Positions 24,106 to 49,675 of a stretch of DNA of 64,000 bases are shown piece by piece (position 1 is the stretch's first letter; each line of letters begins with the position of its first letter). Made by a program: the position numbers and the translations under genes. The notes under the pieces were generated by a model, which worked only from the letters and a program-made list of their open reading frames with translations, did not search any database and had not been told where the DNA came from. This stretch comes from Streptococcus constellatus subsp. constellatus (GTDB lineage Bacteria > Bacillota > Bacilli > Lactobacillales > Streptococcaceae). The DNA is taken from the NCBI RefSeq assembly GCF_023167545.1, contig NZ_AP014647.1, forward strand, positions 434,001 to 498,000. Direction: 5' to 3'.

Positions 24106-25529
24106 GGCTCTTTGTCAACTGTAGTGGGTTACCCAAAAGTCATACCCTGGAGAGGACCGAATTGGTTCTCTCCTTTTTGATATTCAAAGCGATGAGAATT
24201 CTAGTTTTAAAGTTATCAAAGTTCCGGAAGCCGAAAGCGTTGCGCTTGATGACCTTGATGAGGTTGTTAGTAGCTTCTAGTTTTGGGCAGTTCCAGTGCG
24301 TTCAGGATCTTGTCCTCGTCTTTCATAAAGGTCTTAAAAACAGTTTGAAAGATAGGATTTATACAAGAAATTGTTTCTTCAATGAGTCCAAAGAAATGTT
24401 CAGCTTGTTTCTCTTGAAAATGAAAAAAGTAAAAGTTGGTAGAGCTCATAATGTTCTCGTAGTTCTTGAGAGTAAGAGAGCAGTTTTTCCAGAATCTCTT
24501 GATTTGTCAAATGCATACGAAAAGTTGGGCGATAAAAACGTTTATCGCTGAGTTTCCGGCTGTCTTGTTGGAGCAATTTCCAGTAGCGTTTGATCGCCCT
24601 GTACTCGTGCGATTTTCGGTTCAATTGATTCATGATTTGGATGCGAAGGCGGTTCATAGCTCGACTTAGATGTTGTACAATGTGAAAACGATCCAGCACG
24701 ATTTTAGCGTTTGGAAATAGTTTTCTGGCACTATCGTAGTAGGGGCTAAACATGTCCATGGTAATGACTTTCACCCCATTTCGGACCTGTCTGGAATAGC
24801 GCAGGAAGTGATTGCGAATCGTCACTTGGGTTCGTCCGTCTAGGATAGCTATAATCTTTCTGGAATCGAAATCCTGTGCAATGAAGCTCATCTCTATCTG
24901 CCGATTGAAACAGTCACTTCCCTGACTGTTTCCACATCCCAGCTCATGTGTTCTGGAAGGTAGTTGAGTTCCGTCTTGAACTCAAACTCTTTCAGTTTGC
25001 GAATAACTGTGGACGTGGAGACAGCTAAGCTTTCAGCGATGGCAGTCATAGAGACTTTCTCAATTAGTTTTTGAGCGATTTTCTGCTTGACGATGGTTGC
25101 GATTTGGTGATTTTTCTTGACTAAGGAAGTCTCAGCTACAGCCATTTTTCCGCAAGCCTGATAGCAGAAACGGCGTTTTTTCAAACGAATCAGCGTTTTG
25201 TATCCCGCACACTCTAGATAGGGAATTTTTGATTCTTTCTGGAAGTCATATTTAGCCATTTGTCCTTGGCAGTGAGGGCATTTAGGCGCAGGATAATCAA
25301 GCTTAGCAATGATTTCTTTATGCGTTCCAGCATCTAGAACATCCAAAATAGTGATGTTAAGGTCTTTTATTCCGAGTAAGTTTGTGATAAAATTTAATTG
25401 TTTCATAAGATTCTTTCTAATGATGGTTTGGTCACTTTTCATTATAGGTCTTATGGGACTTTTTTTCTACAACAAAATAGGCTCCATCATTTCTACAGTG
25501 GTGGTACCCACTACAGAAATTATAGAGCC
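24106..25529 (-). mobile_element. ISL3-family insertion sequence, decayed
   Basis: About 1424 bp, the normal size for ISL3-family elements such as IS1167/IS1193. Left end GGCTCTTTGTCAACTGTAGT and right end (reverse strand) GGCTCTATAATTTCTGTAGT share GGCTCT and CTGTAGTGGGT, as expected of imperfect terminal repeats. The single transposase gene on the minus strand is broken in at least three places. No convincing 8-base target duplication was found at the two borders. The right end contains an additional palindrome (25480-25529). Confidence 0.85.
24140..25406 (-). pseudogene. ISL3-family transposase, multiply frameshifted
   Basis: Reads in pieces: 25406-24897 (start MKQLNFITNLLGIKD; zinc-finger-like CPHC near residue 37; helix-turn-helix about 110-140), 24891-24400 (DDE core with MDMFSPYYD and VLDRFHIVQ), about 24440-24290 in a third frame (QEKQAEHFFGLIEE) and about 24290-24140 in a fourth stretch (KLEATNNLIKVIKRNAFGFR, holding the catalytic E, ending SVLSRV and a TGA). 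At 24906-24931 the sequence expected to be coding is replaced by a 10-base hairpin. The enzyme cannot be functional. Confidence 0.88.
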
Positions 25530-46574: not shown

Positions 46575-46603
46575 TTGACAATCGTTCTTAAGAGGAGTAT
46601 AGT
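46575..46603 (+). promoter_or_regulatory. mgtA promoter
   Basis: TTGACA (46575-46580), 17-base spacer, TATAGT (46598-46603). The predicted transcript starts about 46610, at the very beginning of the M-box. Confidence 0.85.
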
Positions 46604-46611
46604 TAGTATGA

Positions 46612-46800
46612 AAAATCGGTAGGTGAGGCTACCATAGGGATACGGATGACTACCGCAAAGTAGTGGAGACACTATGCGCTGGTTAGCAGTTGAGATCGCT
46701 AAGGTTTTGACTAATGTCATTTCACTGCCCTACGGAGTTAAAGCTTGAACGGTAACACAAGACATACAGTCCTGCCATGTTTTTCATGGTAGGATTTTAT
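46612..46800 (+). promoter_or_regulatory. M-box (ykoK) magnesium riboswitch with terminator
   Basis: The core GTAGGTGAGGCTACC, ATAGGGATACGGATGACTACC and the closing GTTAAAGCTTGAACGG follow the M-box consensus (TTAGGTGAGGCTCC...GGAGATACGCTGCTGCC...GCTAAAGCTC). A terminator hairpin, TCCTGCCATG (46770-46779) with CATGGTAGGA (46785-46794) and TTTTAT, follows. Mg2+ binding is expected to favour termination and so shut off mgtA when magnesium is plentiful. It is not of the yybP-ykoY class. Confidence 0.9.
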
Positions 46801-46852
46801 CGTTTTGAGCTGATTTTTTAAAGAAAAAATGCAAGGGAAAGGGGTGGAGAAT

Positions 46853-46951
46853 ATGCCGAATGATGATCACCCGAGTCAACAGGAAAACAGTCGATTACCA
46901 TATCTGAGCATTCCTCACGCTCCCTTGGAATCGACTCTAGCAAATGAATGA
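46853..46951 (+). CDS. Putative mgtA leader peptide
   Basis: A 32-codon ORF (ATG 46853, TGA 46949-46951) between the M-box terminator and mgtA, with a strong Shine-Dalgarno GGGGTGGAG at good spacing; an in-frame ATG at 46829 has none. The peptide starts MPNDDHPSQQ and contains five prolines and several acidic residues (LPYLSIPHAPLE). Pro/acid-rich leader ORFs control mgtA in enterobacteria through ribosome destabilisation at low Mg2+. Nothing comparable in streptococci is known to me. Evidence is the ribosome binding site, position and associated RNA structures; no homology was tested. Confidence 0.5.
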   Translation: MPNDDHPSQQENSRLPYLSIPHAPLESTLANE

Positions 46952-46996
46952 CATCTGAGTAAAAAGGCTGTATGCAGCTATTTTGTCACTCGGATG
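46951..46996 (+). promoter_or_regulatory. Hairpin between leader ORF stop and mgtA ribosome binding site
   Basis: ACATCTGAGT (46951-46960) pairs with ACTCGGATGT (46988-46997 region) in a 10-pair stem with one wobble; AAAA/TTTT and GCTG/CAGC extend it inside. It begins at the last base of the leader ORF and ends about 12 bases before GAGGAG of mgtA. No T-run follows, so it is not a terminator. An identical ATCTGAG within the ORF (46902-46908) could pair with the same CTCGGAT instead. Confidence 0.6.
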
Positions 46997-47020
46997 TATC
47001 TTATATAGAGGAGAAAATCA

Positions 47021-49675
47021 GTGAAAACAGCAAAAGAAAGATTAACAGATGCTCTTCGTATGTCTGTAGTGGATACGATGACATTTTTCAACACATCTAG
47101 ATTGGGTTTGACAGAGGAGCAAGTAGAAGAAAATCGCGATCTATACGGTGAAAATGAATTGACCAAAGGGCAAGAAGATTCAATTGTTAAAAAAATTTAT
47201 GAGTCTATTATCAACCCATTTACCGTTATTCTTTTACTCATTGCATTGGTGTCCTTGGTTACCAATGTTTGGCTGGCAAAGCCAGGGCAAGAAGATCCGA
47301 CAACGTTTATCATTATTGTTGTCCTTGTCTTGCTGTCTGGTAGTATTCGCTTTGTGCAAGAATTGCGGAGTGACAAAGCTGCCAGTAATCTTTCGCGTAT
47401 GATTGTCAATACAGTGACAGTTGTTCGTGAGGGAAAAGAGCAAGAAATTCCGATTACAGAATTAGTGGTGGGAGATATTATCCGCTTGAGTGCAGGAGAC
47501 ATGTTGCCAGCAGATGTGCTAATTTTGGATTCGCGCGACTTCTTCGTACAACAGTCAGGTTTGACAGGTGAAAGTGACGCTGTTGAAAAAATGGCACTGG
47601 ATAAATGTGAGATAAAAGAAACTGAGAGTTTACTTGAATCTGACTCACTTGCCTTTATGGGAACCAATGTAATCTCTGGTCGTGCTATCGCGCTTGTGCT
47701 TGTTGTTGGCGACGACACAAAAATGGGAGCTATTGAGCAAACGCTTAACACTTATGATGAACCAACTTCATTTGAACGAGAAATGAACAGTATTTCATGG
47801 TTGTTGATTCGTCTTATGTTGGTACTCGTACCTATTGTCTTTTTTATCAATGGTCTGACAGATGGGGATTGGCTAGAAGCTGGTGTATTTGCACTCAGTG
47901 TTGGTGTCGGTTTGACGCCAGAAATGCTTCCTATGGTCATCACAGCAAGCTTAGCGAAGGGGTCAATTCTTATGGCAAAAGAAAAAGTTGTCATCAAGAA
48001 ACTCAATGCCATTCAAGATTTAGGAGCAATTGATATTCTTTGTACGGATAAAACAGGGACATTGACACAAGATGAGATTGTCTTGGAGTATCCACTTGAT
48101 ATTCATGGAGATCTTGATTTGGCTGTGCTTCGTCGGGCTTACTTAAATTCTTATTATCAAACAGGGTTAAAAAACCTGATGGATCGTGCCATTATCAATC
48201 GGACAGAAAAAGAAGCTGAAAAGCATGAAATCGTTCGCAATTTAGACCAAGCTTTTAAGAAGATTGATGAATTACCTTTTGATTTTGAACGCCGTCGTAT
48301 GAGTGTACTGGTTCGAGATGATGAGAATGTCGTTAGCATGGTGACAAAGGGTGCTTTAGAAGAAATGTTGACTATTTCAAATTCTGTCGAATATAAAGGG
48401 AACATTCTTCCCTTGACAGAAGAAATCCGTCAAGAAATTTTAGCAGAAGTCGCACAGTTAAATGAGCAAGGTCTGCGTGTGCTGGGAGTCAGTTATCGTT
48501 CGGACTTGGATGCTGATTATGAATACACGGTCAAAGATGAGTCTGACATGATTCTGACAGGTTATCTTGCTTTTCTCGATCCACCAAAACCGTCAGCAGC
48601 CCCTGCTATTAAAGCATTAGCCGAGTATGGCGTAGCTACCAAAATTTTAACAGGTGACAATGAAAAAGTTACAGAAGCAGTTTGTGAGAAGGTTGGCTTA
48701 GATGCAAAGAACATCTTGCTAGGCTCTATGATTGAAACGATGTCGGATGAAGAATTGAGCAGAGTTGTTGAAACCACAACTGTTTTTGCTAAATTATCGC
48801 CTGACCAAAAGGCGCGCATCATTTTACAACTGAAAGCAAACGGGCACAAGGTTGGTTATATGGGTGATGGAATCAATGATGCTCCTTCTATGAAAGTAGC
48901 TGATGTAGGTATTTCAGTTGATACAGCTGTTGATATTGCAAAAGAAACAGCTGATGTTATTCTGTTAGATAAAGACTTATTGGTGCTTGAAAAAGGCTTG
49001 GTGGAAGGTCGCAAAGTCTATGCCAACATGACCAAGTACATCAAGATGACAGTGAGTTCCAACTTCGGAAATATCTTTTCTTTGCTAATCTCAAGTATTT
49101 TCTTACCATTTTTGCCTATGGCACCGATTCATTTGATTGTGTTGAATTTGGTCTATGATATTTCTTGTATCGCTTTACCATTTGACAATGTAGACCGTGA
49201 ATTTTTGCAAAAGCCTCGCATTTGGAGTGCAAAATCCATTACTCGTTTCATGGCCTGGATTGGTCCAATTAGTTCTATTTTTGACTGTACAACCTTTTTA
49301 ATTTTGTTCTTTATTATTGCACCAATGATAACAGGGTCTGTTTATCATCATGGTATGTCTAGTAATTTCATTACGATTTTCCAAACAGGTTGGTTTATTG
49401 AGTCCATGTGGACGCAAACGATGGTTATCTATATGTTGCGCTCACCCAAATTACCATTTATTCAAAGTAGACCGGCTTTATCCGTAGTCATGACCACTCT
49501 AGCGGCAGTCTTCTTTGTGACTTTATTGCCCTACGGTCCTTTTGCAGCTCTTTTAAAAGTCACTCCATTAAATGGGATGTATTTCTTATTCCTAATCCTC
49601 ATTATGGTATTGTATATGGCAAGTGTTACATTTGTGAAGCATTTATATATAAAAAAATACCACGAATGGTTATAA
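47021..49675 (+). CDS. mgtA: Magnesium-translocating P-type ATPase
   Basis: 884 residues, GTG start preceded by GAGGAG. P3B-type ATPase with actuator TGES (GLTGESDAV), phosphorylation motif DKTGTLTQD, hinge MGDGINDAPS and about ten membrane segments, ending as MgtA proteins do. It imports Mg2+ with ATP. The M-box upstream supports magnesium as the signal; in related streptococci some MgtA proteins have instead been tied to Mn/Ca homeostasis, which sequence cannot exclude. Monocistronic, with a terminator downstream. Confidence 0.94.
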   Translation: MKTAKERLTDALRMSVVDTMTFFNTSRLGLTEEQVEENRDLYGENELTKGQEDSIVKKIYESIINPFTVILLLIALVSLVTNVWLAKPGQEDPTTFIIIVVLVLLSGSIRFVQELRSDKAASNLSRMIVNTVTVVREGKEQEIPITELVVGDIIRLSAGDMLPADVLILDSRDFFVQQSGLTGESDAVEKMALDKCEIKETESLLESDSLAFMGTNVISGRAIALVLVVGDDTKMGAIEQTLNTYDEPTSFEREMNSISWLLIRLMLVLVPIVFFINGLTDGDWLEAGVFALSVGVGLTPEMLPMVITASLAKGSILMAKEKVVIKKLNAIQDLGAIDILCTDKTGTLTQDEIVLEYPLDIHGDLDLAVLRRAYLNSYYQTGLKNLMDRAIINRTEKEAEKHEIVRNLDQAFKKIDELPFDFERRRMSVLVRDDENVVSMVTKGALEEMLTISNSVEYKGNILPLTEEIRQEILAEVAQLNEQGLRVLGVSYRSDLDADYEYTVKDESDMILTGYLAFLDPPKPSAAPAIKALAEYGVATKILTGDNEKVTEAVCEKVGLDAKNILLGSMIETMSDEELSRVVETTTVFAKLSPDQKARIILQLKANGHKVGYMGDGINDAPSMKVADVGISVDTAVDIAKETADVILLDKDLLVLEKGLVEGRKVYANMTKYIKMTVSSNFGNIFSLLISSIFLPFLPMAPIHLIVLNLVYDISCIALPFDNVDREFLQKPRIWSAKSITRFMAWIGPISSIFDCTTFLILFFIIAPMITGSVYHHGMSSNFITIFQTGWFIESMWTQTMVIYMLRSPKLPFIQSRPALSVVMTTLAAVFFVTLLPYGPFAALLKVTPLNGMYFLFLILIMVLYMASVTFVKHLYIKKYHEWL

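Follow-up and report, generated by a model that had tools for sequence, protein, structure and literature searches.

What does a short open reading frame (ORF) contribute when it stands between a Mg2+ riboswitch and the Mg2+ transporter gene mgtA? The window, i.e. the whole stretch of 64,000 nucleotides analysed here, to which all coordinates refer, holds such an arrangement on its forward strand. A promoter-like site (TTGACA-17-TATAGT, 46575–46603, 11 of 12 consensus matches) lies just 5' of an M-box (ykoK) Mg2+ riboswitch aptamer (46608–46760; RF00380, 91.4 bits, E 9.6e-19), whose score exceeds the gathering score of 44 bits of that covariance model. A sequence scan places a terminator-like riboswitch hairpin of 12 pairs, followed by TTATCGTTTT, at 46768–46796. 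Further downstream are a Shine-Dalgarno sequence (AGGGGTGGAG, 46840–46849) and an ORF of 32 codons, MPNDDHPSQQENSRLPYLSIPHAPLESTLANE (46853–46951, stop codon TGA at 46949–46951), with five prolines and with aspartates at positions 4 and 5. The gene mgtA (47021–49675) encodes a Mg2+-translocating P-type ATPase of 884 amino acids (TIGR01524, 1065 bits against a cut-off of 611), which in a similarity search was 99% identical to MgtA of Streptococcus intermedius SK54. Elsewhere in the window, a Cia-dependent csRNA (RF02379) is found at 1828–1926 and the Streptococcus sRNA Srn266 (RF02822) at 25419–25529.

The original prediction, made from the letters of this region, had described the ORF, its Shine-Dalgarno sequence, a stop codon touching the base of a 10-pair hairpin (46951–46997), two copies of ATCTGAG (46902 and 46953), one CTCGGAT (46989) and an internal stem 46889/46936, and all of these elements are present at these positions. 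It had read the ORF as a translated, mgtL-like leader rich in Pro and acidic residues that forms a second layer of control after the M-box. This reading has gained support, as such a leader is kept throughout the genus and acidic-start leaders follow M-boxes well beyond it.

The leader ORF in Streptococcus

We collected 80 mgtA loci by mgtA similarity (L032–L111; 78 from Streptococcus, plus Abiotrophia and Granulicatella), and 79 of them carry, before mgtA, a short ORF with a Shine-Dalgarno sequence and an acidic residue at positions 2–6. The sole miss, L098, is masked with N. This listing is the unselected set; a larger table of 165 leaders was filled by a pattern favouring acidic starts, so that the 154 leaders fitting that pattern are to be read accordingly. 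The others in the table are three leaders whose starts were lost in processing (L131, L132 and L134), two with runs of N (L098 and L168) and six from outgroup loci whose N-termini differ (L108, L144–L147 and L149), and sixteen loci without a pattern-detected mgtA start were left out of it. Frequent leader types are MQIDDHPEPHIHSQSLICVVLSL, MIQIDDHPEPHRTSQSLICVVGTPKVIGS and MIQIDDHPEPHIASQSLICVIGTL, and the group to which the window belongs begins with MPNDDHPSQQ.

Codons 4–7 of the window's leader, Asp-Asp-His-Pro (46862–46873), form the proposed sensing motif. Counted without anchoring on DD, the motif DD[HY] occurs in 43 of 45 unique uORF sequences, the two exceptions being MPEDGH (L033 and L166) and MPEPDS (L110 and L148). 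Within these 43 ORFs the Asp codons vary synonymously (GAC in 34 and GAT in 9 at the first, GAT in 40 and GAC in 3 at the second), and the Pro after His is retained in 41, as CCG, CCC or CCA; across leaders Pro is not universal, as the MDDSS type illustrates. In the alignment with the two most divergent anginosus-group relatives, L007 and L005, a late frame-shifting indel leaves the N-terminus of the leader unaffected. Synonymous codon variation, a drifting C-terminus and an intact N-terminus are together what selection acting on the N-terminal residues of a translated product would leave. Conservation of the reading frame across streptococci, which had been named as a check of the prediction, holds for the N-terminal DDHP block; the rest of the peptide drifts, even in frame. 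On the strength of these comparisons, we conclude that the leader ORF is real and above chance. Four leaders examined had no match in Pfam or NCBIfam.

The M-box was found in 133 of 247 Streptococcus genomes and MgtA (E 1e-180) likewise in 133, and the two lists agree except for G148, which appears on the M-box list alone, and G015, which has just a 44% relative. In three sanguinis/cristatus loci (L034, L036 and L040) the M-box is placed some 900 nt upstream, in L034 with a 204-codon ORF separating it from the leader, yet the leader ORF still adjoins mgtA. Judging by this placement, the leader ORF belongs to mgtA and not to the aptamer.

Predicted folds and the position of the ribosome

Five segments recur in the leaders that were read closely, namely the ORF initiation region (1), a mid-ORF arm (2), a segment opposing region 1 (3), a segment opposing the mgtA start (4) and the mgtA initiation region (5); segment 4 is predicted to pair with either 2 or 5, and L002 fits the scheme poorly. 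In the window, region 1 (46844–46856) contributes GTGGAGAATATGC to a helix with region 3, the anti-initiation segment of the leader ORF (GCATTCCTCAC, 46908–46918), at a pairing probability of 0.83 in naked RNA. Region 2 (AGTCGATT, 46889–46896) can pair with AATCGACT (46929–46936), a part of region 4 (AATCGACTCTA, 46929–46939). This proposed switching helix is the internal stem noted earlier, and its 3' arm overlaps the CTCTA (46935–46939) with which region 4 pairs to TAGAG at the mgtA Shine-Dalgarno sequence (TAGAG/AGGAG, 47006–47013), within region 5 (47006–47023, GTG start at 47021). In naked window RNA this helix 4:5 has a probability of 0.99, i.e. the mgtA start is predicted to be sequestered, at an opening cost of 6.2 kcal/mol; across 19 leaders the corresponding cost is 3.4–10.3 kcal/mol. 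The closed state is not confined to RNA whose leader ORF is being translated, for most leaders are predicted to be closed even without a ribosome.

Covariation was assessed in an alignment of 34 streptococcal leaders of the DDHPEP type, from which the window's own type is absent. Compared with 500 shuffles, which ignore relatedness, and with helices drawn from one of the aligned sequences, helix 1:3 had 94.1% of its cells in standard pairs, with two-sided changes in six pairs and 24 cells (no shuffle scored as high on cells paired or on cells changed, and one did on pairs changed), and helix 2:4 had 93.3% of its cells paired, with two-sided changes in two pairs and two cells (1, 3 and 5 shuffles as high). 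Helix 4:5 had 89.7% of its cells paired, a result matched or exceeded in 88 of 500 shuffles, and showed no two-sided changes; it is conserved without covariation, and was counted on 8 pairs only, because the alignment splits the mgtA Shine-Dalgarno sequence of short-spacer leaders.

The 10-pair hairpin (46951–46997), which lies between regions 4 and 5, is probably more than a chance feature, judging by its relatives. In L007 and L005, whose alignment was inspected by eye, nine of its ten pairs are kept and the outermost is lost in both; the changes comprise one two-sided change and G-U replacements, one in L005 and two in L007. In the folding of the window it stays at 0.97 in most states, until the ribosome runs into it, and in these models it behaves as a constant spacer. 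As a terminator it is not favoured, because no T run follows directly; only its apical part scored terminator-like. The fold of the window's leader region as a whole is modestly unusual (z -1.87, with 8 of 200 shuffles equally stable). The switch that had originally been proposed, in which the two copies of ATCTGAG compete for CTCGGAT, fared badly and is in our view hardly credible. The three segments are present, and their complementarity is kept, with G-U pairs, in anginosus-group relatives, but the copy at 46902 pairs with 46989–46995 at a probability of 0.00 in all 22 folding states of the window (naked RNA and 21 ribosome positions). The repeat itself is at chance level, as 53 of 500 dinucleotide shuffles of 46853–47020 contain a repeated 7-mer with a pairing partner.

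We modelled translation of the leaders by blocking the footprint of a ribosome codon by codon and computing how much it costs to open the start region of mgtA, all folding being thermodynamic and protein factors being left out. In most of the 19 leaders profiled, the predicted cost stays low while the acidic codons are in the P-site, jumps just past them and drops again near the end of the ORF, often below its value at the motif. It amounts to 2.2–2.6 at I-D-D-H against 8.6–8.9 at E-P-H-R in L055, and to 2.0–3.1 at E-P-D-S and then about 10–11 in L110; in L158, one of the leaders of other genera treated below, it is 2.0 at MDD and 9.3 one codon later. Among 79 unique leaders (78 streptococcal and one from Granulicatella, L110/L148; L045 and L177 differ by the choice of mgtA start), which are related and so do not amount to 79 independent tests, 77 had a positive cost difference, and in 63 it reached 2 kcal/mol or more, with a median of 4.0 over the set. 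Three other footprints gave positive differences in 78, 78 and 75 leaders and differences of at least 2 kcal/mol in 51, 71 and 41, the last being the count for the narrowest footprint. When the codons after the motif were permuted, the observed value was reached in at most 4 of 150 permutations for 16 of 19 leaders (18 of the 19 streptococcal), the misses being L002 (54), L099 (20) and L177 (9); the sets for profiles and permutations were both drawn from the 79. Eleven streptococcal loci, some in duplicate, have 109–204 nt between the ORF and mgtA; in 10 of them, L107 being the exception, the cost still dips locally at the motif and then climbs. In L063, L080, L139 and others, region 4 is separated from the start of mgtA by inserts of about 106 or about 152 nt (range about 106–152), which resemble BOX repeats.

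The window's own leader has a weak predicted switch, which is clear only when 8–16 nt upstream are included in the fold. The cost is then 2.1–3.5 at codons 4–7 versus 6.3–7.7 at codons 10–15. With 25–40 nt upstream it is 6.1–7.3 at codons 4–6, 4.3–4.5 at codon 7 and 7.7–8.0 at codons 9–18, and with 70 nt it is 6.1–7.4 at codons 4–6 versus about 10. Helix 2:4 reaches a probability of 0.67 with the ribosome at the start codon and 0.00–0.04 with the ribosome on codons 3–7 (25–40 nt upstream folded), the low values arising because the leader Shine-Dalgarno sequence pairs onward; helix 4:5 remains at 0.96–0.99 on codons 3–7 (25–40 nt upstream folded). The window's permutation test (2 of 150) rests on a high closed state and not on a low open one.

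A candidate attenuator and its rivals

We consider it fairly probable that the nascent leader peptide senses Mg2+ and thereby governs a translational attenuation of mgtA, in series after the M-box terminator. At ample Mg2+, ribosomes would pass the acidic and Pro codons and cover region 2, whereupon region 4 would pair with the mgtA start region and shut mgtA translation. At scarce Mg2+, ribosomes would pause or drop off at Asp-Asp-His-Pro and occupy region 1 only, so that region 2, being free, would capture region 4 and the mgtA start would open. Pausing and repeated drop-off would be equivalent here, in that under either one ribosomes would occupy region 1 and leave region 2 uncovered, the predicted open state; as the naked RNA is closed, drop-off without rapid re-initiation would not open the mgtA start. 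By analogy with MgtL we infer that ribosomes pause or drop off at the motif and that Mg2+ governs this step; the direction in which mgtA responds is likewise inferred. In favour of the proposal, the ORF, its motif and its position are kept in the genus, the helices homologous to 1:3 and 2:4 appear to covary, and opening is predicted with a ribosome on the acidic codons.

In erm-type attenuators (ermB/ermC), a ribosome held in the leader rearranges RNA hairpins and frees the start of the next gene, and the scheme proposed here is alike in this respect; it differs in its signal, which would be Mg2+ sensed through the nascent chain and not a macrolide, and in that the target is a transporter. To our knowledge, nascent-chain Mg2+ sensing is known only from enterobacterial mgtL and mgtP.

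According to the available text on MgtL, low Mg2+ favours ribosome dissociation at EPDP, so allowing transcription of mgtA (PMC11282234). The streptococcal leader resembles mgtL, as far as that text describes it, in being a short ORF with early acidic and Pro codons before mgtA, in the RNA fold being set by the progress of the ribosome, and in that failure to pass the motif is predicted to turn mgtA on (PMC11282234). It differs in having another peptide, in sitting behind an M-box and in its predicted output, which is the initiation of mgtA translation and not Rho-dependent termination. No match in this genome reached the cut-off for Rho, and the two weak ones are atpD and atpA; the enterobacterial mgtL readout should therefore not operate here. 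Rho-dependent termination was rejected as the output on these grounds, and the leader, which may work like MgtL, is for the same reason not filed as an MgtL-type member. In Mycobacterium tuberculosis, an M-box is likewise followed by a conserved translated small ORF, rv1805A before pe20, with a conserved N-terminus and Pro; there, however, the uORF is the main regulated ORF and Rho is involved, and the available text of that report describes no attenuator over a transporter gene (PMC12810186). The Salmonella mgtP leader of mgtCBR, in the published portion available, is also a Pro-rich leader ORF controlling Mg2+ genes, but it relies on consecutive Pro codons and acts on transcription elongation (PMC6460261). 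Our search of the open PMC literature, with subscription journals mostly outside its scope, yielded no account of a leader peptide preceding mgtA in streptococci, and mgtA is not mentioned in the main text of a survey naming the streptococcal uORF candidate fthC (PMC11109978) or in that of a pneumococcal ribosome-profiling paper (PMC9426450). What would be new here is a Gram-positive, Rho-free, mgtL-like candidate sensor before mgtA with a different output.

Other explanations share parts of this evidence. Ribosomes finishing the leader might melt the anti-start helix and hand over to, or re-initiate at, mgtA. Such positive translational coupling agrees with the predicted opening of the mgtA start with a ribosome on the last codons (around codons 20–29 in the window) and with leaders that end 9–32 nt before mgtA, of which there are several. 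Over all leaders, however, the stop lies anywhere between 31 nt within mgtA (L145) and 204 nt ahead of the gene while the N-terminal motif is retained, and coupling leaves the kept acidic start, helix 2:4 and the closure just past the motif unexplained; we regard it as unlikely. An attenuator of the kind we propose could also be real and yet respond to tRNA charging, to the supply of EF-P or ABC-F proteins or to general ribosome stress instead of Mg2+. Leaders of the erm type have been described with similar logic for antibiotics, and the available texts report that in enterobacteria EF-P and EttA relieve pauses at Pro and acidic codons (PMC11282234, PMC6460261). Against such a signal, which we think rather improbable, the leaders accompany Mg2+ riboswitches and genes for two families of Mg2+ transporter, namely mgtA and mgtE.

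It is very improbable that the leader encodes a small peptide acting in trans, e.g. on MgtA, for conservation across leader types is limited to the first residues and the C-terminus varies freely, even by frameshift; the conserved N-terminus and the small membrane ORFs that adjoin mgtA in some Lactobacillales would suit such a peptide. We give equally little credence to the absence of any second layer, with the M-box terminator alone mattering and the ORF incidental. An M-box with its terminator could suffice for the control of mgtA, the z value of the fold is only -1.87 and the window's own switch is weak, but the conservation of the ORF, the covariation of the helices and the permutation tests all speak against an incidental ORF. 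With the Mg2+-sensing attenuator as the preferred reading, an unannotated 32-codon ORF becomes a testable sensor, and its many natural variants could serve to dissect the destabilisation of ribosomes by acidic nascent chains.

Leaders beyond the genus

Within the same order (Lactobacillales), an M-box was found in 17 of 20 further mgtA stretches, and in 15 of these 17 the ORF with the best Shine-Dalgarno energy between the M-box and mgtA is an acidic leader, the exceptions being L154, where it ranked second, and L152. The types include MPEPDS, MPDDAY, MPNADSE, MPGPES, MDDSQ, MEDSS, MDDSH, MGDDP and others. Twenty more distant loci (8 outside the order and 12 within) yielded an M-box in 15, with an MD or ME leader in 10 and none in the other 5. 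In a class-wide sample of 30 loci, taken one per genome from the best M-box matches and with at least five loci already in other sets, the strongest-Shine-Dalgarno ORF before the next gene starts with MD or ME in 21. The next gene in this sample is mgtA in six by motif; among others tested it is mgtE over the cut-off in L229, L230 and L231, and in L207 a weak Nramp-type match. At least two acidic residues at positions 2–6 occur in 17 of 21 distinct leader N-termini versus 2 of 48 window ORFs; the 21 were gathered as acidic leaders and form a biased set, and the choice by best Shine-Dalgarno energy (15 of 17) is the less biased measure. Non-streptococcal leaders often share position, initiation strength and an acidic start without alignable sequence, a likeness that need not mean homology.

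Leaders of other genera, with unrelated sequences, were subjected to the same permutation of codons, for which 15 of the 20 same-order loci were used; left out were L148 (= L110), L149 (with the leader of L146), L161 (nearly L159), and L151 and L152 (no leader). For 12 of the 15, permutations as high as the observed value numbered at most 5 of 100, L150 counting as a pass only because its null is negative (T 0.2), and the start tested in L154, L156 and L159 being that of a small membrane ORF before mgtA. The misses are L144 (8), L146 (14) and L147 (48), in which the start is already closed at the first acidic codon and open one codon earlier. Of nine leaders from the 20 more distant loci, L196 and L203 alone have a clear switch and L199 a marginal one (T 0.5, 5 of 60), and in the same nine a clear switch was absent from L194 and from all five tested outside the order (L186–L188, L190 and L191); an M-box leader therefore does not pass the test automatically. 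Thirteen of the 30 class-level leaders were profiled without a null, with a jump in L222, L229, L230 and L231 and none in the other nine. Most Lactobacillales leaders tested are accordingly predicted by these models to fold as a translational attenuator, and most of those outside the order are not.

Whether acidic-start leaders accompany the M-box widely, if not everywhere, in Bacilli, ahead of mgtA as well as mgtE genes, seems to us a nearly even question. Many of these mRNAs would then hold two Mg2+ sensors in series, the aptamer deciding on transcription and the ribosome sensing afterwards, by Rho-free translational attenuation in most Lactobacillales leaders tested and some leaders of other Bacilli. 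If this is true, the fragility of ribosomes on acidic and Pro codons would be a widespread Mg2+ gauge, and Bacilli would stack such a sensor behind a riboswitch.

Several loci have features of their own. In one genus outside the order, a uniform leader, MDSPSSSR, follows the M-box in L206, L207, L210, L212 and L213 (MDSPASSR in L209); that of L207 precedes the Nramp-like gene, and for the four profiled (L207, L210, L212 and L213) a start-region switch was not predicted. In L003 (1501–3158), from a Streptococcus without an mgtA match, an M-box stands before an mgtE-type gene, of which the fragment scored 225.5 bits with TIGR00400 (cut-off 232.75), and the ORF MDNSPVPEPSLIVKGF is directly upstream of that gene. 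Two tandem M-boxes precede a single mgtA in L152 (128–641). Short ORFs for single-helix membrane proteins of 30 amino acids, e.g. MSELTIFLLFLGVGCFLWGIFYGKKVKKNDRKK, lie between the acidic leader and mgtA, before or overlapping the latter, in L154, L156, L159 and L161; they may resemble MgtS/MgtU, and a small partner of MgtA is a possible role for their products.
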